Assembly (NCBI GenBank): GCA_023544645.1
Contig: JAMJFO010000025.1
Location: forward strand, 1-45,275
DNA from: Desulfobulbaceae bacterium
GTDB taxonomy: Bacteria; Desulfobacterota; Desulfobulbia; Desulfobulbales; Desulfobulbaceae
DNA: 45,275 nucleotides
Direction of reading: 5' to 3'
Shown here: one piece after another, positions 4,501-24,425 of the stretch
Position numbering within the stretch: the first letter of the stretch is position 1
How the letters are laid out: each line of letters opens with the position of its first letter
Program-made: the position numbers and the translations under genes
Notes under the pieces: model-generated
What the model was told of the DNA's origin: nothing
Database searches by the model: none
Seen by the model: only the letters and a program-made list of their open reading frames with translations

Positions 4501-5474
4501 GGGTCCAGGAAGTCATATCGGCCGCTGTCGGCGGCAAGATCCTTACCACCACTGTTGAGGGCAGAGAGCGCTATCCGGTCCGTGTCCGCTACCTGCGGGA
4601 ACGCCGCGACTCCCTTGAAGAGCTGGAAAAAATCCTGGTTGCCGCCCCGGGCGGAGAACAGGTTCCATTGATCCAGCTGGCCGATATCAGGTACGTCCGC
4701 GGACCACAGGTTATCAAGAGCGAGGACACCTTCCTGACCGCCTATGTGTTATTCGACAAGCAGAAAGGTTTTGCCGAGGTCGATGTCGTGGAGCAGGCCC
4801 GGTCCTTCCTCGATAACAAAATACAGAAGGGTGAACTGGAAATACCCGCAGGAGTATCCTATACCTTTGCCGGCAGCTACGAAAACCAGATCCGGGCCCA
4901 GAAAAAGCTGGCGGTCATTCTTCCCCTGGCGCTGCTGATAATCATGGTGATCCTCTACCTCCAGTTCAAATCTCTGCTGACCACCATGATGGTCTTCTCC
5001 GCCATCCTGGTGGCCTGGTCCGGCGGTTTCATGATGATCTGGCTCTACGGGCAGGAGTGGTTCCTCAACTTCTCCCTGTTTGAAACCAGTATGCGGGAGC
5101 TATTTCAGGTCCAGCAGATCAACCTGTCGGTGGCGATATGGGTCGGTTTCCTGGCCCTGTTCGGCATAGCAACCGACGACGGGGTGCTGATGGCTACCTA
5201 CCTTGACGATTCCCGATCGAATTTCAAGGCCACGGACCGGGAGGAAATCCGCAAAATGGTCATCGAAGGAGCAGAGCGCCGCATCCGCCCGGCCCTGATG
5301 ACCAGCGCCACAACCATCCTGGCCCTGGTGCCGATCCTGACCTCCACAGGCAGGGGCGCCGATATCATGGTCCCCATGGCCATCCCCTCCTTCGGCGGGA
5401 TGTCCATTGCCCTGCTCACCGTTTTCGTTGTTCCCGTTCTCTACTGCTGGCGGGAGGAACGCAGGCTTGGTTAA
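1584..5474 (+). CDS. CusA/CzcA-type heavy-metal RND efflux pump, large variant
   Basis: Inner-membrane proton-driven pump of the HME-RND family, predicted to export a heavy metal through the adaptor encoded just upstream. At 1296 residues it is about 250 longer than E. coli CusA. The TM4 motif AIAIGTIVDMGIIICEN resembles CusA (AIGAMVD) more than CzcA. The periplasmic signature FMPSLDEGSFLYMPTTMP is present near residue 711, and TM10 carries GIATDDGVLMATYLDD. Two insertions explain the length. About residues 545-650 contain three to four additional hydrophobic segments between the usual TM6 and TM7. About residues 786-855 form a hydrophilic charged insert in the periplasmic domain. The start ATG overlaps the adaptor stop by four bases. 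Family assignment is secure; the metal (Cu/Ag) is inferred from motifs. Confidence 0.93.
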   Translation: MTMTPPDHHIPPATSLVGHIIRFCLLHKVVVGLLLLAVTGWGLMVAPFDFNLGGLPRDPVPVDAIPDIGENQQIVFTQWEGRSPQDVEDQVSYPLTAALLGLPGVKTVRSFSMFGFSSIYIIFDDSVEFYWSRSRVLEKLASLPQGTLPPEVKPTLGPDATALGQVFWYTLEGRDETGQPAGGWDLAELRSIQDWYVRYALMGVQGISEVASIGGFVKEYQIDVDPDALRAAGATLEQVFRAVKQSNIDVGARTIEINRVEYVVRGIGFIKDLSDIEEAVIKTTDNLPIRVADVAKVSLGPSQRRGLLDKGGAEVVGGVVVVRYGDNPLAAIDRIKSKIAEISPGLPAKTLADGTRSKVTIVPFYDRSGLIHETLDTLKIALGEEILITIIVVLVAVMHFKSSLLISLLLPLAVLLSFIGMKTFGVDANIVALSGIAIAIGTIVDMGIIICENILKRLEEADPEEHSIKIIYEAATEVGSAVLTAVSTTIVSFLPVFTMVAAEGKLFKPLAYTKTFALIASIILALTVLPPLAHLLFTRARTNNRPAFIQFVFPLLLIIAGLLITWKISNLGLILVGIGIYRFGLKWLPSRIMLQLGKIESWIAIILVTVLLTHVWQPLGVEKGIFINLGFVLLLIGMTLGLLQLFQARYTVMLAWCLRHKLLFLQLPLFITLLGAMIWLGAPKLTGWVPDSLRQTRPFVALSHAFPGLGREFMPSLDEGSFLYMPTTMPHASISEVQEVLALQDQRISAIPEVEIAVGKLGRVESPLDPAPLSMIETVINYRPEYLLDDQGRKIRFKFRKDKKDFFRSPEGEPLAAPDGSPYLVQGRFERNEAGGLIEDPKGMPFRVWRAELDPEINSDREAWAGIKYPDDIWNEIILAADIPGVTSAPKLQPISTRIVMLQTGMRAPMGIKVKGPDLPTIENVAMQLEDLLKQIPSISPLTVLADRVVGKPYLEINIDRKAIARYGIQMAGVQEVISAAVGGKILTTTVEGRERYPVRVRYLRERRDSLEELEKILVAAPGGEQVPLIQLADIRYVRGPQVIKSEDTFLTAYVLFDKQKGFAEVDVVEQARSFLDNKIQKGELEIPAGVSYTFAGSYENQIRAQKKLAVILPLALLIIMVILYLQFKSLLTTMMVFSAILVAWSGGFMMIWLYGQEWFLNFSLFETSMRELFQVQQINLSVAIWVGFLALFGIATDDGVLMATYLDDSRSNFKATDREEIRKMVIEGAERRIRPALMTSATTILALVPILTSTGRGADIMVPMAIPSFGGMSIALLTVFVVPVLYCWREERRLG

Positions 5475-5707: not shown

Positions 5708-8700
5708 ATGGTGATCAATGTCGCAAACATTTCTGCCTGCATCCTGGACATGGACGGTGTTGTTACCAATACAGCCCGTATCCATGCTGACGCCTGGAAA
5801 CAGATGTTCGATGAATTTCTGGCCCACCTCGCCAGGGATGAAGGTAGACAGCTTGAGCCGTTTGATATCGAAAAGGATTACCGGGACTATGTGGATGGAA
5901 AACCGCGGTATGACGGGGTGGAAAGTTTTCTTGCCTCCCGGGATATAACCCTGCCGCAGGGCAGCCCGGAAGATCAACCAGGCATGAAGACGGTTTGCGG
6001 GCTTGGCAACCGGAAGAATGATCTTTTCCTGAAAATCCTGAACCGCGAGGGAGCAGAACCGTATAAGTCGACACTTCGATTTATTGCAAAGGGGCGGGAT
6101 GCCGGTATTCGCTTCGCATTGATTTCGGCAAGTCGAAATGCCGGAAGGGTAATAGAGGTTGCGAAGCTTAAGTCCCTGTTCGAGGTGATAGTCGACGGAA
6201 CAATCGCTGAGGAGCTTGATATTGCCGGCAAACCGGCTCCGGACATCTTTCTGGAGGCTGCCAGGAGACTGCAGACGGATCCAAAACGTGCGATGATCAT
6301 CGAAGATGCCGTGGCCGGCGTGCAGGCGGGCAAAAAGGGCAACTTTGCCCTCACCATAGGAATTGACCGCAACAACCGGACCGCCGCCTTAACAAAAGCC
6401 GGTGCAGATATGGTGGTACGGGATCTGGCAGAACTTTCACTCTGTGATACAACTGCACCGGGAGACCAATTGCCTTCGGCCCTGGACGAGCAGGATGCTA
6501 TTTTCAACCGGCTGCAGGAAGGCACGCCCGCGATCTTCCTTGATTATGACGGCACGCTGACGCCCATTGTCGACAACCCTGCGGCAGCAAAGCTTGACAA
6601 GCACGGCCGCCGGATTCTCCGAAAAGTATCGCAACATCTTTTTGCAGCAGTGATCAGCGGACGGGGACTGGAAGACATTCAAAAAATGGTTGGAATCGAC
6701 GAACTGATCTACGCCGGCAGCCACGGATTCGAAATCAGTGACGGCTCCGGCTATTTCGAAGGCCGACCTGAAAAAAAAAGATATCTGGAGGCCCTGCAGG
6801 ATGCGGAGAAGCAACTCAGATCAATTGCCGGGGAAATGCCCGGAGTAAAAATCGAACGCAAGCCCTATGCCGTTGCCGCTCATTACAGGAATGTTTCAGC
6901 AGAGTTTATTCCGCCGCTTGAACAAAAGATCAATGACATTGAAACCAGCTCAGCCGAACTGAAAAAAACTTCCGGGAAAAAAATATTCGAACTGCGCCCT
7001 GCCGTTGACTGGCATAAAGGACAAGCCCTGCGGAAAATGATCGAACATTTTCATACCGATTGTTCCAGGGTAACGCCGCTCTACATTGGTGACGACACAA
7101 CGGACGAGGATGCCTTCTGCGAAATTGCCGAGAGCGGCGTCGCCATCCTGGTCAGTGAAGAGCCGCGTTCAACCGCTGCCCGGTACCGGCTGCGAAATCC
7201 TTCTGAAGTGTTGACATTCCTGGAAAACCTGGCAGATATGGCCGGCACGGAGTTATTCGGTGACAAATGGACCCTGACCTACGAAGGCTTTGAGCCGGAA
7301 GATGAAAATCTCCGGGAAGTGCTCTGCGCTCTCGGCAACGGATACTTGGCCAGTCGCGGTGCCGCTCCGGAATCCCGGGCCGGCCGCAGTCACTATCCCG
7401 GCACCTATATTGCCGGTTGTTACAACCGCCTTCAGAGCAGGGTTGACGGCCGGGTCATCGAGAATGAAAGCATGGTCAATGTTCCCAACTGGCTGCCTCT
7501 CACTTTCCGGCTCGAAGACGGCCCCTGGTTCGACATCTCCGCGGGAGACCTCACCGATTACCGCCAGCATCTTGATATAGCGACCGGAATTCTGACCAGG
7601 ATCTTCTGTTTCATTGATGGACAAAAAAGAGAAATACGCGTGGCCGAACGCCGTTTGATCAACATGAACTCTCCCCATCTTGCCGCCCTGGAAACGGAGA
7701 TCACCCCCGTGAACTGGTCAGGCACTATCACCGTCCGCTCGGCTGTTGATGGAAGGATATCCAACACCCTGGTCGCCCGCTACCGGCAATTAAATAATGA
7801 CCACCTGATTGCCGGAAACCAGGGGACTGCGGACAAAGGAAAAATCATCTGGCTGCAGGTTGAAACCAGGCAGTCGCATATCCGGATATCCACGGCATGC
7901 CGGACGCGATTTTCTGTAAGCAGAAAGACGGTGGCCCCGGAACTCCGCATCATTAACGAAGCCGGGTATATAGGCCAGGAGGCTGCTATTGCTGTCCATG
8001 AGGGAGAAACACTGCGTATAGAGAAGACAGCATCCTATTATCATTCCAGGGATAACGCCATATCCGAAAGTTCTGAGGCTGCGCAGCATGAAGTTGCCCA
8101 GGCCGCAGATTTCGAGACCATGCTCAAAGAACATCAGCGGGCATGGCAGCATCTCTGGCAGCGTTGCGGCATTAATCTGGAGGCGGCAAACAGCAGGGTT
8201 TCCCAGATACTGAACCTGCATATCTTTCATCTTCTGCAGACGGTGTCGGTTCATTCCATTGACCAGGACGTCGGTATTCCGCCCCGAGGTCTGCACGGTG
8301 AGGCCTACCGGGGACTGATCATGTGGGACGAACTCTTTGTTTTTCCCTTTCTCAATCTCCGCATCCCTGATCTTACCAGGGCCCTGCTCCATTACCGCTA
8401 TCGCCGCCTCCCGCAGGCAAAAAGAGCGGCAAGAGATGCCGGCTTCAGCGGTGTCATATTTCCATGGCAGAGCGGCAGCAACGGGAGAGAGGAGGCTCAG
8501 ACTCTGCACCTGAACCCCGAATCAGGGCACTGGGTCCCGGACAATACCCACCTGCAGCGGCATATCAATATTGCGGTGGCCTATAACGTCTGGCTGTACT
8601 ACCAGGTAACCGGTGACCTTGATTTCATGTCATTCTACGGAGCGGAAATGATCATCGAGATCGCCCGATTCTGGGCAGACATTGCCTGCTACAATGAATT

Positions 8701-9661
8701 GCTCGACAGGTATGAAATCAAGGGCGTCATGGGGCCCGACGAATTCCATACAGGTTATCCGGATACCGAAGAGCCCGGGCTCAACAACAATACATATACC
8801 AATGTCATGGCGGTGTGGCTTTTCTGCCGTGCCCTGGACGTCCTGGATATTTTGCCGCCGAACAGGCTCCAGCCGCTGTGGGAAAATCTTGCCATGGAAC
8901 AGAAGGAGCTTGACCGCTGGAACGATATAAGCCGAAAAATGCGCCTGGTGTATCATGACGGCGACATTCTCAGCCAGTTTGAGGGGTATGATGAACTGGA
9001 GGAGTTCAACTGGGAGAAGTATCGGAACAAATACGGCAACATTCATCGCCTTGACCGCATACTGGAAGCAGAACAGGACACTCCGAACCGCTATAAAATC
9101 TCCAAGCAGGCCGATGTGCTCATGCTTTTTTACCTGCTGTCCGCCGATGAACTCGGGCAGCTGTTTAAACGGATGGGATACCCTTTTCCCTATGAAACAA
9201 TTCCCAGGACTATTGAGTATTATCTCAAGCGCACCGTGCATGGCTCGACATTGAGCCGTGTGGTGCACGCCTGGGTCCTTGCGAGATCACGGCGCGAGCA
9301 GTCCTGGAACCTGTTCTGCGATGCCCTCAATAGCGACGTATCCGACATCCAGGGCGGCACCACCCATGAAGGCGTCCATCTCGGAGCCATGGCCGGCACG
9401 GTGGACTTGATGCAGCGCTGCTACACCGGCATGGAAACACGTGATGATGCGATCTGGTTCAATCCTGCCCTCCCCACGGAAGTCAGGAAACTGTCTTTCA
9501 ATATCCACTACCGGCACCACTGGCTCAACGTATCCATTCACAAGGAAAAAATGACCGTTGCCAGCCAGGACATGTTCGGCGCTCCCATAAAAGTAGGACT
9601 ATGGGAGACGTTACAGGAACTCAAGCCGGGCCGAACCATTGAACTTGATTTAAGACGTTGA
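5708..9661 (+). CDS. OtsB1-like three-domain protein: HAD phosphoglucomutase + trehalose-6-phosphate phosphatase + GH65 phosphorylase
   Basis: A single chain of 1317 residues with three catalytic modules. Residues 1-255 are a beta-phosphoglucomutase-type HAD domain with the nucleophile motif DMDG (D14, D16). Residues about 260-515 are a trehalose-6-phosphate phosphatase with DYDGTLTP (D279, D281) and the acidic motif GDDTTDEDAF (D462, D463). Residues about 520-1317 are a GH65 inverting disaccharide phosphorylase with GPDEFH (general acid E1012). All these key residues are present. Order and length match mycobacterial OtsB1 (Rv2006, about 1327 residues). The plausible reaction chain is trehalose-6-P to trehalose, phosphorolysis to glucose and beta-glucose-1-P, then isomerisation to glucose-6-P. 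The GH65 substrate could instead be maltose, kojibiose or another disaccharide. No otsA is in the window. The start lacks a clear Shine-Dalgarno sequence. Confidence 0.92.
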   Translation: MVINVANISACILDMDGVVTNTARIHADAWKQMFDEFLAHLARDEGRQLEPFDIEKDYRDYVDGKPRYDGVESFLASRDITLPQGSPEDQPGMKTVCGLGNRKNDLFLKILNREGAEPYKSTLRFIAKGRDAGIRFALISASRNAGRVIEVAKLKSLFEVIVDGTIAEELDIAGKPAPDIFLEAARRLQTDPKRAMIIEDAVAGVQAGKKGNFALTIGIDRNNRTAALTKAGADMVVRDLAELSLCDTTAPGDQLPSALDEQDAIFNRLQEGTPAIFLDYDGTLTPIVDNPAAAKLDKHGRRILRKVSQHLFAAVISGRGLEDIQKMVGIDELIYAGSHGFEISDGSGYFEGRPEKKRYLEALQDAEKQLRSIAGEMPGVKIERKPYAVAAHYRNVSAEFIPPLEQKINDIETSSAELKKTSGKKIFELRPAVDWHKGQALRKMIEHFHTDCSRVTPLYIGDDTTDEDAFCEIAESGVAILVSEEPRSTAARYRLRNPSEVLTFLENLADMAGTELFGDKWTLTYEGFEPEDENLREVLCALGNGYLASRGAAPESRAGRSHYPGTYIAGCYNRLQSRVDGRVIENESMVNVPNWLPLTFRLEDGPWFDISAGDLTDYRQHLDIATGILTRIFCFIDGQKREIRVAERRLINMNSPHLAALETEITPVNWSGTITVRSAVDGRISNTLVARYRQLNNDHLIAGNQGTADKGKIIWLQVETRQSHIRISTACRTRFSVSRKTVAPELRIINEAGYIGQEAAIAVHEGETLRIEKTASYYHSRDNAISESSEAAQHEVAQAADFETMLKEHQRAWQHLWQRCGINLEAANSRVSQILNLHIFHLLQTVSVHSIDQDVGIPPRGLHGEAYRGLIMWDELFVFPFLNLRIPDLTRALLHYRYRRLPQAKRAARDAGFSGVIFPWQSGSNGREEAQTLHLNPESGHWVPDNTHLQRHINIAVAYNVWLYYQVTGDLDFMSFYGAEMIIEIARFWADIACYNELLDRYEIKGVMGPDEFHTGYPDTEEPGLNNNTYTNVMAVWLFCRALDVLDILPPNRLQPLWENLAMEQKELDRWNDISRKMRLVYHDGDILSQFEGYDELEEFNWEKYRNKYGNIHRLDRILEAEQDTPNRYKISKQADVLMLFYLLSADELGQLFKRMGYPFPYETIPRTIEYYLKRTVHGSTLSRVVHAWVLARSRREQSWNLFCDALNSDVSDIQGGTTHEGVHLGAMAGTVDLMQRCYTGMETRDDAIWFNPALPTEVRKLSFNIHYRHHWLNVSIHKEKMTVASQDMFGAPIKVGLWETLQELKPGRTIELDLRR

Positions 9662-9858: not shown

Positions 9859-10764
9859 TTACCCGCCTTTTTTTACGAGAATTCTTTCTGCCTCTGCCAG
9901 GCCCAGATAACTGTGCCTCATCGTGCTCCAGGGGTCTTCCGTTTGCCCAAGCCGCTGAAAAATGTTGCCAATGGTGCATGACCTGGGGCCGACTGAACCA
10001 TTTTCAACTTCATGCCAGTGAATCGGAACGGCAATCGGGGCCGAAGCCCTGGCCCGGACGCTGTAGGGGGCGACGGAAGTCTGCGCATAGGCATTCCGGT
10101 TGGTATCTATGAAGAGTCTTCCCTGCCGTTTCCGAATGATCTGCTGGGTGGTCATTTCAACCGGATGCTTTTGGGCCAGGCTGTCGGCAATTCTGCGGGC
10201 CAATCCACGAACGCTGGCATATTTCTTTTTTCTGAGCAGGGGGACAGTCACATGGATGCCGCGTGATCCGGTGGTCATGGCAAAAGATTTCAGTCCCAGT
10301 TCCCTGAGAAAATCGCGCAGCTGGATGGCAGCCATCCGGATTTTCGCGAAATCTCCGTTTCCGGGATCCAGGTCGAAAATCATGCGATCAGGGTAATGAA
10401 GGCGATCACTACGACTGAGCCAAAGGTGAAAAGTAATGGATGCCTGATCGGCCATGTACACAAGTGATGCCGCATTGTTGCAAATGGCATGGGTGATTTT
10501 GCCTTCTTTTTTGGGAACGCTTACCCGCCTGATCCAGGAGGGAAAATAGTCCGGCACATCCTTGTGATAAAAATCATTGCCTTCGATCCCGTCCGGATAC
10601 CGGTGCATCATCAGCGGACGATCCTTCATGTACGGGAGCATGACCTTGGCTATCTTCCTGTAATATTCAATCAGATCGCCCTTGGTGATTTCGTCCTTTG
10701 CAAAAAAAAATTTGTCTTCGTGTGAAGTTTCAACCTTATATCTGCCGAAATGAAGGATGCTCAT
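9859..10764 (-). CDS. LigD-type polymerase/primase domain protein (archaeo-eukaryotic primase family)
   Basis: A 301-residue stand-alone version of the polymerase domain of bacterial DNA ligase D, which fills and extends broken DNA ends with NTPs or dNTPs during non-homologous end joining. The catalytic acidic motif is DLDPG, near residue 147. A nucleotide-binding His follows in GSRGIHVTVPL, and the conserved block IDTNRNAYAQTSVAPYSVRA lies near the C-terminus. No ligase or nuclease domain is attached, and no Ku gene is in the window. It lies 90 bases downstream of the hibernation-factor gene on the same strand and may be cotranscribed with it. The start ATG at 10764 has only a weak Shine-Dalgarno sequence. 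Some relatives of such stand-alone PolDom proteins have no demonstrated repair role, so the end-joining function is inferred. Confidence 0.88.
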   Translation of the reverse strand: MSILHFGRYKVETSHEDKFFFAKDEITKGDLIEYYRKIAKVMLPYMKDRPLMMHRYPDGIEGNDFYHKDVPDYFPSWIRRVSVPKKEGKITHAICNNAASLVYMADQASITFHLWLSRSDRLHYPDRMIFDLDPGNGDFAKIRMAAIQLRDFLRELGLKSFAMTTGSRGIHVTVPLLRKKKYASVRGLARRIADSLAQKHPVEMTTQQIIRKRQGRLFIDTNRNAYAQTSVAPYSVRARASAPIAVPIHWHEVENGSVGPRSCTIGNIFQRLGQTEDPWSTMRHSYLGLAEAERILVKKGG

Positions 10765-11796: not shown

Positions 11797-13752
11797 CTAT
11801 CTGGACTGCCGGTCCGGGGAAAAATTCTCCAGCTCCGCAATCAGTTCCCGGTTCTGCTGCGCAGAGGTGCGGCTTTTTGCCCGGAGGGCCATGGCCAGGG
11901 CTTTCGGGATATTGAGTGCCTGCCCCCCGGCCAGTTTAGAAATATAATCTGCCCGGTAACCGGGATCAACGCGCAGCGACCAGTTGTCGTCGATGACGGT
12001 TCCAGGTTTATTGTATGCCTGCCTGATACCGAGAAGATCGGTAAAAAACACCATGATATTACGGGCTGGGCCGATGAACAGATCGGCAAATTTTGCCTGG
12101 ACAAGTGGTCCGGCATCAAGGGCGATGCGTTCCGCCCATCCGGTTCGTTCATCTTCAGGAATGCGCATGCGCGCGGCCAGATATCGCGCCTGTTGCCGGG
12201 AAACTCCGCTCTCGATCCATTCCTCGGCTTTCTGCCAGACGGGTGGGGTGTCATGGTTGCCGAGCATCAGCCAGTCTTCGGGCTGGGCATTTTCACTGCG
12301 ATATACATCATGGGGATCACCGAGATCTGCTTTCTGCGTAACCCTGAACCGGCCGAGACTGTAGATTTCCATGACGCGTTTTATCGGATAGGGCTGGGTG
12401 CTGAGAATTTCGCAGGCAATTTCATGTGCGCCGCGCGAGCTGTCGCGGGCTGAATCCATAATTACATCAAGGAGAAGCGCATAACGGCGGACCTGTTCGG
12501 GGTCGAGGTCGAGCACCCAGTTGTCTTCATGACGCTGTGCCTGTCTATTGAGCTGGTCCGGTCGGACAATAGCGAATTCGGCAAGTTCCGGATGCTCGAC
12601 AACAGCAGGCGAGGCAAAAAGACGGGCGCCCTGCTGCACCTCGCGGACCGGGTTTTCCCGGTTCGCGCGATAGACCCATGGGCAGACCAGACCGTGCGGG
12701 TGATCAATGCGCAGGCCGTCGAATTCCGCAAACATTTTATCCGCGCGTTCCCGCAGGAAGCGGACCGCCGGACCGGGATGCCTTACCCCGTCGATATCGC
12801 GGAAACAGTATTGCCGTGGGTCCAGCACCGGGTAGTTCCAGGGTTGTCCCTCCGGATTGGTGCGGCTGGGAGGGGCTCCCATGACATAGTCGCGCAGCAG
12901 AAAGGATTGGACACGCCAGGCATCGCGCCCGGAAAGGCCGATCTGGAAATCGCCGAAAAGTTTCAGGCCGATCTGCCGGCATCTGTTTCTGCATTCGTCA
13001 TGTTGCCGGGCAAGCAAATATTGGGTGAAAGAATAGTCCTCAACAGCCTCCCGGTGGCGGGAAAACAGCCCGTTGACCCGCCTTTGCGCTGCTACCGCGC
13101 AGCCGGGAGGAGGATTGAACAGGTGCCTGTCGAGGCGGGCGTTTTTTCCTTCCTGCCATTGCTTCCAGTTTTTTCCGCCATATTCCTGCCGTAAAATCTC
13201 ATACAGGGCGTCGCGGTCAAGCCATCCGGCATTGCGCTGTCGGTATGCGTCGAAGGATTCGACAGGTGCTGCGATTTTTTTTTGTCTGAGCCGGGCCTGA
13301 TACCGTTGAAAAAGTCCGGTAGAAATTTTCCCAACGGCCATTCTGGCAAAGGATTCGTGAACACGGTCATCCTGGAACTGCCGGGCCTTGACGACTGCGG
13401 CAAGCATTTCCGGATCGACCAGATTCCATGGCTCCCCGGTGAGTCTCAGCGGCGCCAGCGAAAGAGGATTTTTTGAAAAAAAGGTGCCGTCATAGGGAGA
13501 AGGATTGACAGAGGTGGTTATTCCCTGCGGCCCAAGCTGTATTCCGTTAAAACCGAGGGAGCCGACAAAATTAAAAAATTCCTCCGCGCCTCTGGAATAG
13601 GGTGTGCCGCGACCGAGGTCCTCTTCCGGAAGGCCCGGGAAAGAGGCATCATGGATGCCGAGCAGGAAATTGCGGATACCGAGAATTTCCAATGCTGCTT
13701 GTATTTTCGGTTGCAAGGCGGCAAAATTTATCTGCATCATTCTGCCCGGCAT
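11797..13752 (-). CDS. malQ: 4-alpha-glucanotransferase (amylomaltase, GH77)
   Basis: A 651-residue GH77 enzyme that transfers maltooligosaccharide segments between alpha-1,4-glucans and releases glucose; it would rework the linear chains trimmed from glycogen. The catalytic nucleophile is D350 in GLRIDHPHG, the acid/base is probably E448 in ACEILSTQPYP, and the third carboxylate is D501 in LGNHDTPP. The sequence around E448 differs from the usual AEDLG motif, so this belongs to a divergent GH77 subgroup rather than the E. coli MalQ type. No strong Shine-Dalgarno sequence decides between the ATG at 13752 and two ATGs (13740 and 13737) four and five codons in. It is separated from glgB by the lactate dehydrogenase pseudogene. 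Confidence 0.9.
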   Translation of the reverse strand: MPGRMMQINFAALQPKIQAALEILGIRNFLLGIHDASFPGLPEEDLGRGTPYSRGAEEFFNFVGSLGFNGIQLGPQGITTSVNPSPYDGTFFSKNPLSLAPLRLTGEPWNLVDPEMLAAVVKARQFQDDRVHESFARMAVGKISTGLFQRYQARLRQKKIAAPVESFDAYRQRNAGWLDRDALYEILRQEYGGKNWKQWQEGKNARLDRHLFNPPPGCAVAAQRRVNGLFSRHREAVEDYSFTQYLLARQHDECRNRCRQIGLKLFGDFQIGLSGRDAWRVQSFLLRDYVMGAPPSRTNPEGQPWNYPVLDPRQYCFRDIDGVRHPGPAVRFLRERADKMFAEFDGLRIDHPHGLVCPWVYRANRENPVREVQQGARLFASPAVVEHPELAEFAIVRPDQLNRQAQRHEDNWVLDLDPEQVRRYALLLDVIMDSARDSSRGAHEIACEILSTQPYPIKRVMEIYSLGRFRVTQKADLGDPHDVYRSENAQPEDWLMLGNHDTPPVWQKAEEWIESGVSRQQARYLAARMRIPEDERTGWAERIALDAGPLVQAKFADLFIGPARNIMVFFTDLLGIRQAYNKPGTVIDDNWSLRVDPGYRADYISKLAGGQALNIPKALAMALRAKSRTSAQQNRELIAELENFSPDRQSR

Positions 13753-13987
13753 GCTGTTTCTGCACCATTCATCTCATCGCCATCCGGAACGAAAATCTCA
13801 TTACTGAACAAAATTCAAGTAAAGCAGCATTGGTACGCAATTGTCAAGCCTGCGCAGCATGCAGTCGGATGCAGCCGGGACTGTGAGCATGGCTATTCTG
13901 TCATATCGGGTTTGTTCGTATCTGGCAGGCGAATTGCCGAACCTTGCATGAAAAGTTTCATCAGGTCCAGGAAAAAGGAGGTATTGC

Positions 13988-14253
13988 ATGAAAGTAGGAT
14001 AAGCCTATCACGGCATCGGCGCCGCTCTTTCGCGGATCATTAAAGCCATTCGTGATGATGAGGGAGCAGTCCTGACCATTGCCGGTCTCTGCACACGCAT
14101 CGAAGGGATTTCCGGGGTCAGTCTGTCGGTTTCCAGAATCCTCGGGGCGCAGGGGATTGCCGCCGAACTTTGGCCGTCCCTGTCGGATGAGGAGTACCGG
14201 GAACTGGAACGCAGCAGCAGGATTCTGCAGGATGCCGCCGGTGAACTGGGCTA

Positions 14254-14257
<4 letters not shown>
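13988..14257 (+). pseudogene. L-lactate/malate dehydrogenase with internal deletion (start codons plus C-terminal 84 residues)
   Basis: A strong Shine-Dalgarno sequence (AAGGAGG, 13975-13981) is followed six bases later by ATG AAA GTA GGA, the typical first codons (MKVG) of L-lactate dehydrogenase. A TAA comes next at 14000. From 14003 the same frame is open for 84 codons to TAG (14255-14257). It reads AYHGIGAALSRIIKAIRDDE at its start, then VLTIAGL, GVSLSVSRILG and LSDEEYRELERSS. This matches the C-terminal domain of L-LDH (compare TYYGIAMGLARVTRAIL in Bacillus LDH). The Rossmann domain and the catalytic Asp/His/Arg region, about 220 residues, are missing, so the gene is dead. The stop overlaps the glgB stop on the opposite strand (shared CTAG). 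It lies in a glucan cluster otherwise coded on the minus strand. Confidence 0.85.
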
Positions 14258-16157
<1,900 letters not shown>

Positions 16158-16161
<4 letters not shown>

Positions 16162-19100
16162 TTTTCCCGCCTGGTTGTTTTTTTCCCGTCAATGATGTCG
16201 ATGATGCCGGCCAGCGGGATATGCATCCAGTCGGGCCGGTTGTTCAGTTCATATTTCAATTCATAGAATACCTTTTCCAGGAGAAAGATTTCCAGGATGA
16301 ATCCGGCATCCGTTTTCGGCAGAAAAGGGGCGTCGCCGGCAGTATCGAAATAGGACTTGAGAAAAACAGTGCATATCCATTCATACCATGCCCTGCCCCA
16401 GGGCTGAAGTTTTACCCGCTCCGTATCGCTTTCGGCTGACGCGGATAAAGCGCTGCTGACCGCATACTGGAAGGAGCGGATCATGCCGGCGATATCCTTT
16501 AAAGGCGAATTTTTGCTGCGCCTCTCCGCCAGCGGTCTCAAGGGTTCACCTTCAAAGTCCAGGAGGATGAAATCATTGTCGTTCGTCCGCAGCACCTGAC
16601 CGAGGTGATAATCACCATGATGCCTGATCAGGAGGCCCAGGTTTTCGCCGATGTCGGCGGCACTTCCGATCCTTCCCAGAAGATCGGGACCCTCGACCAA
16701 CACCCGGTCGGCTTGTTTGCGGACTGACGGAGAAACATCGGAGATGGCTGCTCCCAGCATAGCCAGTACTTCCTGAACTTCCCGGGATATTGTTTCGGCA
16801 AGCTGTTCGGTGAATACGGCAGTCGCCTTTACCGGTTTGAATTGCGCATTCTTTTTCTCCTGCGCCAATGCCAGGTGAAACTGGGCGGTTCGCCGGCCCA
16901 GCGTCCCGGCCGCCTCAACATATCCAGGGTCCATGGATACGAAAAAATCAGGGGGTTTTATACGGAAATCCTCCGCAAACGAATCGTTCCTGCCCGGTGC
17001 CCGCGTTCCGGCAGCGGCCATTTTCGCGGCTTTTGCGAAATAATTTTTCAAGGCGAAGAGAGTATAGGACCACCCGTCTCCCCGGTTGGGGATAAATTCC
17101 TGCAGCATGCCAATGGTTGCCATGCCGCCGGCAGGACCAGTGTAGTGCAATGTTCCCGCGACCCTGGCGATGCCGGTGAACCTGCTCTTCTCGGTGAGGA
17201 AAAGACTCATCTCCACATCGGGGTTTGCTCCTTCTTCGAGTTTCCGATAGAGCTTGAGGACAAATGATTCCCCGATAATAATCGAGGTATTGCTCTGTTC
17301 CACACCGAGTTTTCTTACTTCGGCACAGGGGTTGCCGGCGCCGATTAAATCCTCGTAGGCGTCGGTGGGCATGGCCCTGATGGTTCCATTTTCACTGGTA
17401 CGGTAGCGGCGGCCGTCGCTTATGGCGGTGAAGAGAATATCACAGGAAGCCCTGTCCATCAGGGCGTCATAGAGGATGCCTTCGCCCCGCCGGTTTTTCA
17501 CGCCGGCCACGATGCTGCCCGGAATTTCTTCGGCGAGCAGTTGCGCCGGCGGCCCCTGGACAATTTTCAACGGCATCACGTAAACTTCCTCTTCACCGGT
17601 TTCGTACCGTACCTGGAGGAAGGTGATATAAAATGATGCACCCAGCTTGCACCAATCAACCATCCTGCAGGAGGAAAAATCCTTAGCCTTGCCGCGGAAC
17701 CATCTCTGGCCGGCCAGAAAGGATGGCAGGATGTCGTTGCCGAGGGCGAAGAGATATTCCGGCTGCAGCAGCGTATCCCACATATCATCCAGGGTCAGCT
17801 GCGGAACCTGCTGCAGGGTTTTCGTTCCGACGTTGCCCGCCTTGATCGGTTCAGCCTGCGGTTCGAGCCTGAACCAGTAAAAACTGTGCGGTCCCAGGGT
17901 GATGAAATAGGGCAGGTCGCCGATTGGCGGAAATTCCGTTCTGCCGATCATTTCCACGGGAATTCGTCCCCTGAATTCGGATAGATCCAGTTCGGCGGGC
18001 TGCACGAACCTTGAGAGATTGGCGACCACCAGGATGATTTCTCCCATGTAACGGCGGATATAGGCGAGAATCGCCCTGTTGGGCGGGCGGAGAAAATCCA
18101 TGCTGCCGCGGCCCAGGGCCTTGTGCTGGCGGCGCAGGGCGATCATCCGGCGCATGAAATGGAGCATGGATGAAGGATTGCGCTCCTGCGCCTCCACGTT
18201 AACCGACTGGTAGCCGTAGACCGGATCCATGATCACCGGCAGATACAGGCCGGCAGGGTCGGCCCTGGAAAAACCACCATTTCTGTCCATGTTCCATTGC
18301 ATCGGGGTGCGGACGCCGTCCCGGTCGCCGAGAAAGATATTGTCGCCCATGCCGAGTTCGTCGCCGTAATAGATGACCGGTGAGCCGGGCATGGAAAAAA
18401 GCAGTGAGTTCAGCAACTCCATGCGGCGGCGGCTGTTGTCGAGCAGGGGGGCGAGGCGGCGGCGGATGCCGATGTTCAGCTTCATCCTGCTGTCCATGGC
18501 ATATTCCCGGTACATGTAGTCGCGTTCGGCATCGGAGACCATTTCCAGGGTCAGTTCATCGTGATTGCGCAGGAAAAGCGCCCATTGACAGCTTTCCGGG
18601 ATGGGAGGCGTGCGATCGAGTATGTCGGTAATCGGATGCCGGTCTTCCTGGCGCAGGGCCATGAACATCCTGGGCATCAGGGGAAAATGAAAGGCCATAT
18701 GACATTCATCGCCGTCACCGAAATAGGGCAGGACATCCTCGGGCCACTGATTGGCCTCGGCAAGAAACATGCGGCCGGTATAGTGCTGGTCGAGGTATTT
18801 GCGGAACTGCTTGAGAACGGCGTGGGTTTCCGGCAGATTTTCATTGTTGGTCCCTTCGCGGACGCAAAGATACGGCACCGCGTCGAGACGCAGTCCGTCG
18901 ACGCCCATGTCGAGCCAGTAGCGCATGGCCTTGAGAACCGCCTTGACGACCTGCGGATTGTTGTGATTCAGATCCGGCTGATGCGAAAAGAAGCGGTGCC
19001 AGTAGAAGGCCTTGGCCTCGGCATCCCAGGACCAGTTTGATGCTTCGGTATCGGTGAAAATAATCCGCGTTTCCGGAAACCGCGTGTTGGTATCGCTCCA

Positions 19101-19499
19101 GACATAGTAATTCCGGCGGGCCGATCCGGTCTTTGCCCTTCTCGCCGCCTGAAACCAGGGGTGCTGATCGGAAGTATGATTGATAACCAGTTCGGTAATG
19201 ACCCGGATTCCGCGGTGGTGCGCTTCCCGGACAAAGGTCCTGAAATCCCGCAGACTCCCGTAGCCGGGATGAATGCCCCGGTAATCGGAAATATCGTAAC
19301 CGTCATCCCTGAATGGCGACGGGTAAAAAGGCAGCAGCCACACAGCGGTGACGCCGAGCTGCCGGATATAATCAAGTTTTTCAATCAGGCCGCGAAAATC
19401 TCCGGTACCGTCGTCGTTGCTGTCCTTGAATGCCTTGACGTGCAACTCGTAGATTATCGCATCCTTGTACCACAGGGGATCGGATTTTAAAGCGGGCAT
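16158..19499 (-). CDS. treS: Trehalose synthase / maltokinase fusion (TreS-Mak)
   Basis: A bifunctional 1113-residue protein. Residues 1-550 are a GH13 trehalose synthase that interconverts trehalose and maltose. The nucleophile is D206 ([10 protein letters not shown]), the acid/base E248 ([12 protein letters not shown]) and the third carboxylate D314 ([12 protein letters not shown]). Residues about 600-1113 are a maltokinase (Mak/Pep2) with the kinase-like catalytic loop [11 protein letters not shown] (Asp near residue 962) and metal-binding LLDFEGEP. The product, maltose-1-phosphate, is the substrate of GlgE. The frame is open further upstream, but I place the start at ATG 19499 because [20 protein letters not shown] is the normal TreS N-terminus and the extension would run into glgE. 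It starts 13 bases after the glgE stop and overlaps glgB, so glgE-treS/mak-glgB look like one operon. Confidence 0.95.
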
Positions 19500-19512
19500 G
19501 GGTAAACTCTTT

Positions 19513-21519
19513 TTACATGAAGTAGTCGAAGTCGCGTTCGGTCCGTAGTTTCCGCCGCAGGAGAAAAATCTGCGCCGGGCTGGCGCCCGGATCAAGCCGG
19601 ACGAAATTCCGGCGGCCCTGCCACAGGAAGCGGTTGTCAAAGAGAAGTTCATGCACCTGGAAAACCTCCTTTTCACTGATGCCGAATTCCTCGAGCGGCA
19701 CCTCCAGCCACCCTTCCTGGACATGGTGGGGATCGAGATTCACTGCGACCAGGATAATATTGGCAAGGTCGTCGGTGCTCTTGCCGTAAAAGATGATCTG
19801 TTCATTATCCACCGGATAAAAGGAAAGTCGGCGGTTGGAAGCGAGGGCGGCATTGCTGCGGCGAATGGTGTTTATCCTGGTGATAAAGGCGCGGATATTG
19901 CCGGGCGTGTTCCAGTCGCGGGGTTTTATTTCGAATTTCTCCGAATTGAGATACTCTTCCGTTCCCGGCACCGCCTCGCTCTCGGCCAGTTCGTAGCCGC
20001 TGTAAATACCGTAGCATGAAGAAAGTGTCGCGGCAAGAACCAGACGGGAAATAAAGGCCGGCCGCCCGCCGAACTGGAGATATTCCGGCAGGATGTCCGG
20101 GGTATTGGCAAAAAAATTCGGCCGGAAATATTCCCTGACATCGGTATTGACCAGCTCACGAAGATAGGCGGTCAGATCATACCTGGTATTGCGCCAGGTA
20201 AAATAGGTATAGGACTGGCTGAACCCGGCCTTTGCCAGCGCATACATCATCCGCGGCCGGGTAAAGGCCTCGGAGAGAAAGACGACTTCCGGGTATTCGC
20301 GGCGCACCCCGGCGATAAGCCATTCCCAGAAAGGCAGAGGCTTGGTATGCGGGTTGTCCACCCGGAAAATGCGCACTCCGTGTTCAATCCAGAACAGAAC
20401 GATGCTTTTTAGTTCATGCCAGAGTGACTGCCACTCCTCACAGTCAAAGGAAAACGGATAAATGTCCTCATATTTTTTCGGCGGGTTCTCGGCAAATTTG
20501 ATCGTGCCGTCGGGACGGTGCCGGAACCATTCGGGATGTTCGCGGACATAGGGATGATCGGGCGAGCACTGGAAGGCGATATCAAGAGCAATTTCAAGTC
20601 TCTGGCTGCGGGCGCTTGCGACCAGATGGGCAAAATCCTCCAGGGTGCCGAGGTCGGGATGGACCGATTTATGTCCCCCCTCCCGGGAACCGATGGCCCA
20701 GGGGCTGCCGGGATCCTCTGCCGCTCCGGCCAGGACGTTGTTGCGGCCTTTGCGGTTGGTGCGGCCGATGGGATGTATAGGCGGAAAATAAAGAACATCA
20801 AAGCCCATGCGGACGATTTCCGGGATCAATTTCTCGGTATCTTTGAAAGTTCCGCTTCTGCCTGGATCTGAAATGACGGAGCGGGGAAATATTTCGTACC
20901 AGGCGCTGAATGCGGCAATGGGCGGTTCAACCGTAACCGTGAGCGGAGGATCGGAAACCGCTTCCCGGGAGCGGTCGGGATAGCGATCCATCATGGCGCC
21001 GATGTCGGCGGCAGTCGCCCTGGCAACAAGATTTTCCCGGGGATCATCACTCTGCAGCATTACCGCGACAGTGCCCAGCCATTCACTGTCCGGCGTGCGG
21101 GCTCTGTCGGCGGCGGCTTGAATCATGGCCGCACCTTCCAACAGTTCGCTGGCGCCCCCCTGCCCGGCTTCGAATTTTTTGGCCAGATCCCTCTGCCAGG
21201 TGGAGAAGTGATCAACCCATGCCTTGATCCTGTACCGGTACATGCCGGGAGTCTCGACCTGAAACTCCGCCGCCCACAAATCAATTGCCAGGCAGGTCAT
21301 GGGCAGTTCCGTCCACTCCTCTTCCATGGACCGGACATCCAGCACCGCTTTCAGCAGGTCATGGCCGTCGGCAAAAACAGAGGCCGTCACCCTGACCTTT
21401 TCTCCCACTGCCCGTTTGATTGGAAAACGGCCGCAATCTATCCGCGGTTTGATATCTTCAATCCAAACCCGGGAGGCCTTATTCCCGGGAAGCTTTTCCG
21501 GCCCCTGACCCTGTTGCAT
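19513..21519 (-). CDS. glgE: Alpha-1,4-glucan:maltose-1-phosphate maltosyltransferase (GH13_3)
   Basis: The 668-residue GlgE extends alpha-1,4-glucan with maltosyl units from maltose-1-phosphate. An N-terminal beta-rich domain (residues 1-115) and a helical segment precede the GH13 barrel. The nucleophile is D388 ([10 protein letters not shown]), the acid/base E417 ([13 protein letters not shown]) and the third carboxylate D475 ([10 protein letters not shown]). These are the GlgE-specific sequence contexts, which separate it from other GH13 members. It is the first gene of the glgE-treS/mak-glgB set, and its neighbour makes its substrate. The start at 21519 is preceded by only a weak GAG-containing sequence. 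Confidence 0.96.
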
Positions 21520-21882
21520 AGTTTCTCACGGTGGCATACTTTTTGTTAAGATAGACTTCTATTGACCGGACATCACAATATCGATGCCAGATTCGGCACC
21601 ATTGAATTCGGTTACCCATGACCTCGCATCGCCCCTCATTGCGGCGGAAAAGTGCATTGAAACTGCCGGCGGCACTGGGAAACCATGGACATTGCCCTGT
21701 CCGTCCTGAAGACCTCCTGCTCCTCCTCCCGCAAGGGAGGGGAAGAATATGCCTTCGGGGTGCCTTTAACAGAACAAACAGCAATTAATATGCCAATTTC
21801 ATGGAAGAGCCCCTTCTACCGATATAAAGTACTTTTACCGTACTACCTGCTGGCCGTTATTGTGCCGGACCGCAATTTCTCT
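21520..21882. other. Intergenic region, 363 bases, between glgX and glgE
   Basis: No gene is supported. The region should hold the glgE promoter. A G/C-rich hairpin, CCTCCC-gcaa-GGGAGG (21725-21740), lies about 140 bases past the glgX stop, with no T-run after it on the minus strand. Small open frames here lack ribosome binding sites and resemble no family I know. Confidence 0.5.
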
Positions 21883-24009
21883 TCAGTTTCGCCTGAACAG
21901 AACGAATGAGCGGGCCGCCATTTCATATTCTTTCTTCACCGTTTTATTGCTGTCCCCTCCATAGCCCTCTTCATGGGTGTCAAACACCAGTTCCCATTCA
22001 CCGTCCGGGGTGTCGTCAGGCAGGATGAAGGATACCGGGTCATCCCGGTTATTGAGAAAAATCAGCAGTGTCTGATCCCTGATAACATTTCCCTGTTCAT
22101 CAATCTCCTCGATTACATCTCCGGCCAGGCGGAAACCGAAAGACTGCAGATCGGGCCGGTGCCAGTCCTCATCCGTCATCTCGCTGCCGTCCGACAGAAA
22201 CCAGGTCAGATCCTTGACTTCGGAGCCGCTGATTTTTCTTCCCAGGAAAAATTTGCGCCGGTGCAGAACAGGATGTTTTTTGGTCAGGGCGACAACCCTG
22301 CGGGTAAAATCCAGCAGGCTGCGGCCCTCTTCCCCGATCTCCCAGTTGATCCAGGAAATTTCGTTGTCCTGGCAATAGGTGTTGTTGTTGCCTTCCTTGG
22401 TGTTCCCTGTCTCGTCGCCGGCCAGCAGCATGGGAACGCCCTGGGACAGGAAGAGGGTGGCGAGGAAATTTCTTTTCTGCTTTTCCCGCAGCTTTTTGAT
22501 TGCCGGATCGTCCGTGGGTCCCTCAACACTGCAGTTCCAGCTCAGATTGTCATCCGTGCCGTCCAGATTGTCCTCGCCGTTGGCGTCATTGTGTTTCTCG
22601 TTGTAGGAAACAAGATCATTCAGGGTAAAGCCGTCATGGCAGGTGACAAAGTTGATACTCGCATAGGGCCGCCGGCCGCTGAGCTCGTACAGGTCGCTGC
22701 TGCCGGTCAACCGGTAGGCCAAATCACTCACTTGTCCCGGATCTCCCCGCCAGTAGCGCCGCGCCGTATCCCGGTATTTTCCGTTCCATTCGGCCCAGAG
22801 AACGGGAAAGTTTCCCACCTGGTAGCCACCCTCGCCCAGGTCCCAGGGTTCGGCAATGAGCTTGACCTGGGACAGGACCGGATCCTGGTGAATGATATCG
22901 AAAAAGGCTCCCAGCCGGTCAACATCGTGCATTTCCCGCGCCAGGGTCGCGGCCAGGTCGAAGCGGAAGCCGTCAACATGCATCTCAAGCACCCAGTACC
23001 GCAAACTGTCCATGATCAACTGCAGAACACGGGGGTGCATCATGTTCAGCGTATTGCCCGTGCCGGTATAATCCTGATAGTAACGCAGGTCATCGGAAAC
23101 AAGACGGTAATAGGCGGCGTTGTCTATGCCGCGGAAGGAGAGGGTTGGTCCGAGGTGGCTGCCTTCGGCGGTATGATTGTAGACCACGTCGAGTATCACC
23201 TCCAGGCCCTCCTTATGCAGCGCTTTCACCATTTCCTTGAATTCAATGACCTGCTCTCCCCTTCTGCTGCATTGGCAATATCCGGCATGGGGAGCAAAAA
23301 AACCGATGGAATTATATCCCCAATAGTTGGCAAGTCCCTTTTCCCGCAAATGACGATCCGTGACAAAATGATGAACCGGCATCAGCTCGACGGCAGTGAC
23401 GCCAAGTGATTTCAGGTGGCTGATGATCGCGGGATGGGTCAGTCCGGCATAGGTCCCCCGTATTTCAGGTTCCAGGTCCGGATGCAGGGCCGTGAATCCC
23501 TTGACATGCAGTTCGTAGATGAATGTCCTGTGCCACGGGTTCCTGAGAGGGAGGTCGTCTTCCCAGTCAAAGGTCGGGTCAATGACAGCGCATTTCGGCA
23601 TGAACGGCGCGCTGTCCTCTTCACTTCGGGAGAGATCCGCCCTGTCGTCTCCGATAACGTAACCGAACATGGCGTCATCCCAGTCGATTATTCCGTTGAT
23701 TGCCTTGGCATAGGGATCGAGCAGCAGTTTCGCCGCGTTGAACCGCTGCCCCGATTCCGGATCATACGGTCCGTGGACCCTGTAACCGTAAAGTTGTCCG
23801 GGCGTTATGTCCGGCAGATAGGAATGCCAGACCTGGTCGGTATGCTCCATCATCGGAATGCGCAAGGTTTCCCGCTCGCTGTCGGTGTCGTTGAACAAGC
23901 AGAGTTCAACCTTGTCCGCGTGCTCGCTGAACAGGGCAAAATTGCATCCTCGCCCGTCCCATGTCGCCCCCAGGGGATAGGCATTTCCCGGCAGTACTTT
24001 AACAGTCAT
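21883..24009 (-). CDS. glgX: Glycogen debranching enzyme (isoamylase-type, GH13_11)
   Basis: The 708-residue enzyme hydrolyses alpha-1,6 branches in glycogen. An N-terminal CBM48 domain (PLGATWDGRGCNFALFSEHA) is followed by the GH13 barrel. The nucleophile is D351 (VDGFRFDLAATLA), the acid/base E387 (LIAEPWDLG) and the third carboxylate D459 (VTCHDGFTLNDLVSY). I place the start at 24009 (MTVKVLPGN) because AAAGGAGG at 24017-24024 lies seven bases upstream. The frame extends 15 codons further, but that reading would put the ribosome binding site inside the gene. It works with MalQ in glucan breakdown and sits next to the GlgE synthesis genes, separated by a 363-base gap. Confidence 0.95.
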   Translation of the reverse strand: MTVKVLPGNAYPLGATWDGRGCNFALFSEHADKVELCLFNDTDSERETLRIPMMEHTDQVWHSYLPDITPGQLYGYRVHGPYDPESGQRFNAAKLLLDPYAKAINGIIDWDDAMFGYVIGDDRADLSRSEEDSAPFMPKCAVIDPTFDWEDDLPLRNPWHRTFIYELHVKGFTALHPDLEPEIRGTYAGLTHPAIISHLKSLGVTAVELMPVHHFVTDRHLREKGLANYWGYNSIGFFAPHAGYCQCSRRGEQVIEFKEMVKALHKEGLEVILDVVYNHTAEGSHLGPTLSFRGIDNAAYYRLVSDDLRYYQDYTGTGNTLNMMHPRVLQLIMDSLRYWVLEMHVDGFRFDLAATLAREMHDVDRLGAFFDIIHQDPVLSQVKLIAEPWDLGEGGYQVGNFPVLWAEWNGKYRDTARRYWRGDPGQVSDLAYRLTGSSDLYELSGRRPYASINFVTCHDGFTLNDLVSYNEKHNDANGEDNLDGTDDNLSWNCSVEGPTDDPAIKKLREKQKRNFLATLFLSQGVPMLLAGDETGNTKEGNNNTYCQDNEISWINWEIGEEGRSLLDFTRRVVALTKKHPVLHRRKFFLGRKISGSEVKDLTWFLSDGSEMTDEDWHRPDLQSFGFRLAGDVIEEIDEQGNVIRDQTLLIFLNNRDDPVSFILPDDTPDGEWELVFDTHEEGYGGDSNKTVKKEYEMAARSFVLFRRN

Positions 24010-24425
24010 TGTCTGTCCTCCTTTCTTCACACGTATTTGCCCGGCACCGTTCAAACATGGATTATTTTTAACTCGTATTGTTTCCCCTTCAAAGGATTCA
24101 TATTATTCTATAACCTTACCGTGTGTATTACAAATCATTCCGTTTTCCATTTTCCATTACAGGCGGTCACTTGCTTCGGTTTTCTTGACTGGTAAACGGC
24201 AAGGCCAGGTGCAAGATCAATTATTCCTCATGTTGGTTTTACAACCGGCCTGAACAACTACTTTTTTTCACCTTACATTCAACTGCTTCAAGGTTAAACA
24301 AATCGGTCACAGCTTTTTTTTCGACAATCAGATTACAGAACGGGTATAGTAACCACTATATGATGCACAACTTTTTTGTTGTTTATTGCCATTCCATTGA
24401 AGCTTAGCATTTACCAGGAATCAGG
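24010..24425. other. Divergent intergenic region, 416 bases, between glgX and the AOR gene
   Basis: An A/T-rich control region for two divergent genes, with no supported coding sequence. Visible elements are the glgX ribosome binding site (24017-24024), a perfect inverted repeat TATAGT-aacc-ACTATA (24345-24360) about 65 bases before the AOR start, and a CAAC-tttttt-GTTG repeat shortly after it. I cannot assign a regulator. Confidence 0.5.
24345..24360 (+). promoter_or_regulatory. Candidate operator upstream of the AOR operon
   Basis: A perfect 6-base inverted repeat with a 4-base spacer (TATAGT/ACTATA) lies 66 bases before the AOR start codon. Position and symmetry fit a repressor or activator site. 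No known consensus matches convincingly, so this is a low-confidence call. Confidence 0.3.

Follow-up and report, generated by a model that had tools for sequence, protein, structure and literature searches.

What does an OtsB1-type protein do, with a beta-phosphoglucomutase (bPGM)-like HAD domain, a trehalose-6-phosphate phosphatase (TPP) domain and a GH65 domain following one another on one chain, and in which direction does its chemistry run? The question is raised by a 1317-residue protein encoded in a stretch of 45,275 nucleotides from a Desulfobulbaceae bacterium (assembly GCA_023544645.1, contig JAMJFO010000025.1, positions 1 to 45,275; hereafter, the window). The function of the mycobacterial namesake was listed as unknown in a 2024 review (PMC11046441), and a 2025 paper describes OtsB1 as uncharacterised, a claim that it lacks phosphatase activity having been published without data (PMC12090744). 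Here we propose, with a probability of slightly below one half, that the window protein is a fused OtsB1-type enzyme of the trehalose 6-phosphate (T6P) node whose GH65 domain acts as a T6P phosphorylase working in the synthetic direction. The architecture itself is already known from OtsB1; what is new relative to the literature searched is that the GH65 part is assigned to T6P and that a trehalose route free of nucleotide sugars is proposed.

Three domains with intact active sites

Pfam places a Hydrolase domain at residues 8-210 (E 8e-22), a Trehalose_PPase domain at 277-498 (E 3e-45) and the N, m and C domains of GH65 at 524-1295, the central one with an E value of 1.5e-123. Above their cut-offs, the NCBIfam models PGMB-YQAB-SF (8-217) and T6PP, a trehalose-phosphatase model (274-509), agree, with the TPP domain above the TIGR00685 cut-off. 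The three-domain assignment is far beyond chance, and the OtsB1-like layout that the initial annotation had recognised in this reading frame, with the same domains in the same order, holds.

The key residues named there also align with their counterparts in characterised enzymes: D14/D16 with D8/D10 of Lactococcus lactis bPGM, D279/D281 with D186/D188 of Mycobacterium tuberculosis OtsB2 (numbering of the 5gvx chain) and E1012 with the general acid E483 of CsKP. In the bPGM domain, all ten compared residues (D14, D16, T22, H26, R67, S140, S142, K175, E199 and D200) equal D8, D10, T16, H20, R49, S114, S116, K145, E169 and D170 of the L. lactis enzyme. In the TPP domain, 25 of 25 compared active-site positions, covering the HAD motifs and cap residues, are identical to OtsB2 (5gvx). 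By residue comparison, all three active sites are intact. The fusion is the sole GH65 gene and the sole TPP gene of its genome, which is 99.92% complete.

As a separate observation, the N-terminal part of OtsB2 (5gvx residues 87-170) aligns with residues 179-262 of the fusion, where the bPGM domain ends, although the catalytic Glu-Asp of that domain is missing from OtsB2; OtsB2 may be the remnant of a bPGM-TPP unit.

The GH65 domain groups with T6P phosphorylases

Six positions separate the GH65 specificities, reading DQGQDE in T6P phosphorylase, TRIGPP in trehalose phosphorylase and EEAPxx in kojibiose phosphorylase (De Beul et al., PMC8537180). The DQGQDE fingerprint was confirmed by assay on CaGP of Caldithrix abyssi, which formed T6P from beta-glucose 1-phosphate (beta-G1P) and glucose 6-phosphate (G6P) (PMC8537180). 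At these positions (CsKP 64, 392, 394, 402, 416 and 585), the window protein carries S588, Q921, G923, Q931, D945 and E1122, that is, SQGQDE, which matches the T6P phosphorylase fingerprint at five of six places and does not match TRIGPP. The complete TPP-linked GH65 sequences examined all read D/S-Q-G/A/S-Q-D-E, apart from a few that have P in fourth or Q in sixth place, and the actinobacterial bPGM-GH65 pairs of Rv3400/Rv3401-like layout read TR...P, with TPP in none of them.

A tree of 94 GH65 sequences places the window protein, together with the structure entry 9lb6, inside a clade of T6P-type sequences that holds 78 rows and has a support of 100, the trehalose, kojibiose and maltose phosphorylase types being separate. 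Its nearest rows (L058-L060 and L002) are all three-domain fusions. In members of the clade, the general acid is followed by a GYPxxxxxGL insertion. A KYGxIxRxDRxLxAE block is largely conserved in T6P-type GH65 domains, including 9lb6, and missing from other GH65 domains; its basic residues may bind the 6-phosphate. The most likely activity of the GH65 domain of the window protein is thus that of a T6P phosphorylase catalysing T6P + inorganic phosphate (Pi) <-> beta-G1P + G6P.

Because fingerprint and clade are of the T6P type, GH65 and TPP probably have T6P as their common substrate rather than working in series via trehalose, and breakdown through a GH65 domain of this specificity would end in two G6P, with no glucose set free. 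The initial annotation had instead proposed that TPP releases trehalose, which GH65 would cleave to glucose and beta-G1P for conversion to G6P by bPGM. All three domain types that such a chain needs are there, and a glucokinase gene adjoins one related plasmid bPGM-GH65 fusion. The acceptor residues and the tree nonetheless speak for T6P and not for trehalose as the GH65 substrate; GH65 domains of the trehalose phosphorylase type form a clade of their own, and those linked to bPGM never occur with a TPP domain in the examined set. The chain would also have to start from T6P, for which the genome holds no known source. What survives of that proposal is the presence of the three enzymes, and we consider the serial pathway highly improbable.

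A different acceptor has also to be weighed, since CsKP position 64, which is among the strongest specificity markers, is D in most T6P-type GH65 domains and S in all fully fused clades. S588 could accordingly mark a GH65 domain that forms or cleaves a glucoside 6-phosphate akin to T6P but distinct from it, dephosphorylated in turn by TPP. The fingerprint is, however, unchanged at its other five positions, the KYGxIxRxDR block is present, and the TPP active site equals that of OtsB2 at the compared positions, which makes this alternative improbable.

Phosphate site and structural model

The phosphate site of GH65 phosphorylases consists of a Lys, a His and two Ser, and is lost in a GH65 hydrolase (PMC8626586). 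The window protein keeps the phosphate-site residues (Table 1) and shows no sign of the hydrolase replacement (Pro-Ala, Phe and Met, as in FjGH65A). Its Arg in place of Lys is also found in BsGGP, a proven phosphorylase, and its Ser-Thr also in 9lb6.

The GH65 domain was modelled, with plasmid-derived rows left out, and obtained a predicted local distance difference test score (pLDDT) of 91.9 and a predicted template modelling score (pTM) of 0.93. The best structural match of the model is 9lb6 of Weissella ceti (Z 47.0, root-mean-square deviation 1.9 A over 769 residues), followed by kojibiose phosphorylase (Z 42.9). The 9lb6 deposit names its molecule "Trehalose-6-phosphate hydrolase" and has a phosphatase in its title, while its sequence is of the T6P phosphorylase type; the name is likely a mislabel. 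A T6P phosphorylase structure was described in a 2025 paper, according to the citing passage of PMC13121652, and may be this same entry.

Taken at its word, the molecule name would make the GH65 domain a T6P hydrolase giving glucose and G6P, and a conserved acidic residue, E1221, lies near the phosphate site. By residue spacing alone, E1221 is off the position of the known hydrolase base (FjGH65A E616), and the phosphate site is retained. A fused bPGM would be pointless beside a hydrolase, and the deposit names 9lb6 in two ways, whereas the 2025 paper calls a structure of this class a phosphorylase. We regard hydrolysis as extremely improbable.

Table 1. Features of the fusion gene and of the neighbouring GlgE pathway genes (positions in the window; residue numbers refer to the fusion protein)
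Feature	Position	Strand	Basis
bPGM-TPP-GH65 fusion, coding sequence, 1317 aa	5708..9661	+	ATG to TGA
Beta-phosphoglucomutase HAD domain, aa 8-243	5729..6436	+	Pfam, NCBIfam, residue comparison
Trehalose-6-phosphate phosphatase domain, aa 275-510	6530..7237	+	Pfam, NCBIfam, residue comparison
GH65 domain, aa 519-1308, trehalose-6-phosphate phosphorylase type	7262..9631	+	Pfam, fingerprint, tree, model
S588 = CsKP position 64	7469..7471	+	fingerprint
R860 = CsKP K330, phosphate site	8285..8287	+	alignment
Acceptor loop Q921, G923, Q931, D945 = CsKP 392, 394, 402, 416	8468..8542	+	fingerprint
E1012, general acid = CsKP E483, followed by the GYPDTEEPGLN insertion typical of the T6P-type clade	8741..8743	+	alignment
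Y1109..E1122 block (YGNIHRLDRILEAE), candidate 6-phosphate contact	9032..9073	+	alignment; contact predicted
S1180-T1181 = CsKP S631-S632, phosphate site	9245..9250	+	alignment
H1224 = CsKP H675, phosphate site	9377..9379	+	alignment
GH77, 4-alpha-glucanotransferase-like	11797..13752	-	context
GlgB branching enzyme	14254..16161	-	context
TreS-maltokinase fusion, uses trehalose	16158..19724	-	context
GlgE maltosyltransferase	19513..21519	-	context
GlgX debranching enzyme	21883..24054	-	context

A proposed route to trehalose and its direction

In the proposed route, the bPGM domain would convert G6P into beta-G1P, the GH65 domain would join beta-G1P to a second G6P with release of Pi, and the TPP domain would irreversibly strip the phosphate from the resulting T6P, giving 2 G6P -> trehalose + 2 Pi with no need of UDP-glucose or ADP-glucose. 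From there, trehalose could enter the neighbouring TreS-maltokinase-GlgE pathway. Since the TPP step runs one way towards trehalose, the overall sum would be irreversible. For the T6P phosphorylase class, the equilibrium constant for T6P formation is given as 760, which is strongly favourable, and the reverse reaction has been used in vitro for making T6P (PMC13121652). We put the synthetic direction at about one half; the GH65 substrate within the subclade of the window protein, channelling between the domains and the link to GlgE are likewise inferred.

The available sources of T6P bear on this direction. A family search found no GT20 (OtsA) in the window's own genome. The PTS_EIIB family of the glucose/trehalose phosphotransferase system (PTS) gave no match in 33 genomes including this one, with Escherichia coli and L. 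lactis positive as controls, and PTS import as the T6P source was rejected on these grounds. A closed genome of the same order (G195, one contig of 3,097,763 bp, identified by inference as Desulfurivibrio alkaliphilus AHT2) likewise contains neither GT20 nor PTS_EIIB. With both absent, GH65 working in reverse is the only known T6P-making enzyme there.

Several observations weigh against synthesis. One of the six fingerprint positions (CsKP 64) is occupied by S588 where the assayed fingerprint has D, and the L. lactis T6P phosphorylase serves breakdown. The genome encodes TreY, so that trehalose is obtainable from glucan without the fusion, which rules out the trio of bPGM, TPP and T6P-type GH65 as the sole trehalose source. 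A trehalose kinase supplying T6P could exist elsewhere in the genome. Across a phylum sample of 395 genomes, the trio occurs in 19 and a GT20 match in 164; among the 19 trio genomes, GT20 is strong in ten, weak in two and lacking in seven. Because ten of them have a strong GT20, the trio does not simply replace OtsA, and an anticorrelation of the two within the phylum, looked for as such, was not found. Finally, GH65 genes of the T6P type on plasmids, whether TPP accompanies them or not, are often surrounded by genes for glycolysis, phosphoketolase, sugar kinases, universal stress proteins and regulators, a setting that fits breakdown equally.

The main rival to synthesis is the recycling of T6P, in which GH65 and bPGM would run downhill (T6P + Pi -> 2 G6P) to feed glycolysis under hypoxia or starvation, with TPP serving trehalose synthesis and the fusion acting as a branch-point regulator. 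OtsA would provide the T6P in the ten trio genomes that have it, and the plasmid genes have as neighbours genes for a phosphoketolase, a phosphofructokinase-like kinase, an aldolase or a stress regulator. OtsB1 of M. tuberculosis is part of the DosR regulon, and carbon-starved cells were the only ones found to contain it (PMC12090744); TPP-less bPGM-GH65 fusions adjoin a uridine-kinase-like kinase and sugar importers, likely as a breakdown module. Recycling is harder to reconcile with the window's own genome and that of D. alkaliphilus, neither of which has a known T6P source, and a single chain that puts T6P to opposite uses would set the two in competition. On balance we judge recycling less likely than synthesis.

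The part of a 2006 survey that sets out five bacterial trehalose routes (PMC1769515) does not have the proposed one among them. More broadly, and more tentatively, bPGM, reverse T6P phosphorylase and TPP on one polypeptide may amount to a natural trehalose biosynthesis free of nucleotide sugars, absent from the usual lists of routes, and this may have been the ancestral function of the OtsB1 family.

Distribution and TPP-less fusions

In Thermodesulfobacteriota, Chloroflexota, Planctomycetota, Bacteroidota, Pseudomonadota and Actinomycetota, the OtsB1-type set is found on a single gene or divided between two or three. Where it is split in two, the upstream TPP gene runs into the GH65 gene in most of the cases examined; the shared stretch is exactly 4 bases long in three of them (start codons were predicted mechanically), and this overlap suggests coupled expression. 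Two Halomonas-type genomes have the same neighbourhood at loci L004 and L005, one with bPGM-TPP and GH65, the other with bPGM and GH65 and no TPP part.

Fusions of bPGM and GH65 without TPP that adjoin a kinase gene occur in Anaerolineae and Calditrichota, with sugar importers alongside in some. One of them (L139:7932-11081, genome G421) is the only T6P-type GH65 found in a one-contig genome of 4,978,541 bases that is probably Caldithrix abyssi; the assayed CaGP may thus be a fusion of bPGM and T6P phosphorylase. The kinase, of about 210 residues, belongs to the uridine-kinase/PRK family of P-loop kinases, scores far below the udk cut-off and lies directly behind such fusions or within about 1 kb of them (L139:11096-11731, L009, L010, L011, L012, L013, L014, L019 and L032). 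Neither a clear GT20 nor PTS_EIIB was found in the hosts, ten of these genomes having no GT20 above the family cut-off. The kinase is a candidate trehalose 6-kinase. It was seen only beside one clade of bPGM-GH65 fusions, nearly all from Chloroflexi or Calditrichota, so that the mutual exclusion of TPP and kinase is confounded with lineage, and it is not used here as proof of direction.

The conserved core of OtsB1 relatives

Every complete sequence examined from the Nocardia/Mycobacterium family retains the general acid, phosphate site and fingerprint of GH65, some with P in place of Q at the fourth position. By contrast, L112, L113-L116, L118, L119, L121 and L092 have lost catalytic bPGM residues. 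Losses in TPP affect L118, where Ala replaces the nucleophile Asp, L119, where it replaces a Lys, and L123-L125, at several residues. The pattern is consistent with stepwise decay among the Mycobacteriales relatives (L092, L112-L125), in which bPGM would have decayed first and TPP thereafter, with GH65 left intact. Loss of TPP residues would account for an absence of phosphatase activity from some OtsB1 proteins; GH65, intact while the other two domains decay, is the conserved part of these relatives. For M. tuberculosis Rv2006 itself, which was not identified in the sample, a conserved GH65 core is a prediction from its relatives.

The clade with S at position 64, which includes the actinobacterial relatives, has a support of 92. 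Holding the fused rows alone together, as a test of a single fused ancestor for all three-domain proteins, was rejected, but GH65-only rows nested among them confound the test. Once every actinobacterial relative is counted in, the three-domain proteins already make up one side of a branch with a support of 92, which is compatible with one or two origins.

Genomic neighbourhood

A full GlgE pathway set, which the initial annotation had correctly noted as a neighbour, comprises GlgX, GlgE, TreS-maltokinase, GlgB and GH77 and lies 2-14 kb downstream of the fusion on the opposite strand (11797-24054). The switch between trehalose breakdown and glucan storage that the initial annotation read from this neighbourhood is a conjecture. 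The fusion gene is solitary, with the two genes of a CusBA-type efflux system on one side and, convergent with it, a LigD-polymerase gene on the other. The CusA/CzcA-type RND pump (1584-5474) has 1296 residues where ~1050 are usual, and includes some 150 additional residues, for the most part hydrophobic, beyond residue 546; the LigD polymerase-domain gene (9859-10764, minus strand) lacks ligase and nuclease domains.

Comparison with known systems

OtsB1 is a dormancy-linked tuberculosis protein, and the present comparison names a T6P-type GH65 as the conserved core of its relatives, with bPGM and TPP as the decaying parts. The window protein has the domain order and length of mycobacterial OtsB1 (Rv2006 type), whose close Nocardia-family relatives carry a GH65 domain with SQGQDE; unlike the many relatives that have lost bPGM or TPP residues, it keeps all three sites, and is thus a version suitable for assaying OtsB1-type function. 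With the T6P phosphorylases (EC 2.4.1.216; L. lactis TrePP and C. abyssi CaGP), it shares five of six fingerprint residues, the clade and the phosphate site, differing by S in place of D at position 64 and by its fused bPGM and TPP. Inverting trehalose phosphorylases (EC 2.4.1.64) resemble it in fold, general acid and frequent pairing with bPGM, but have the TR...P fingerprint, form a separate clade and never occur with TPP in the examined set.

At the level of pathways, the proposed route would share its TPP step and its trehalose product with the OtsA-OtsB pathway, whereas the nucleotide-sugar synthase of that pathway is absent from the window's own genome. The same reverse reaction is used in cascades of maltose phosphorylase and T6P phosphorylase, with or without bPGM, in vitro (PMC13121652), which are engineered mixtures with neither a TPP phosphatase nor a natural fusion. 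If the chain of the window protein runs in synthesis, trehalose, and hence GlgE glucan, would be reached without nucleotide sugars.

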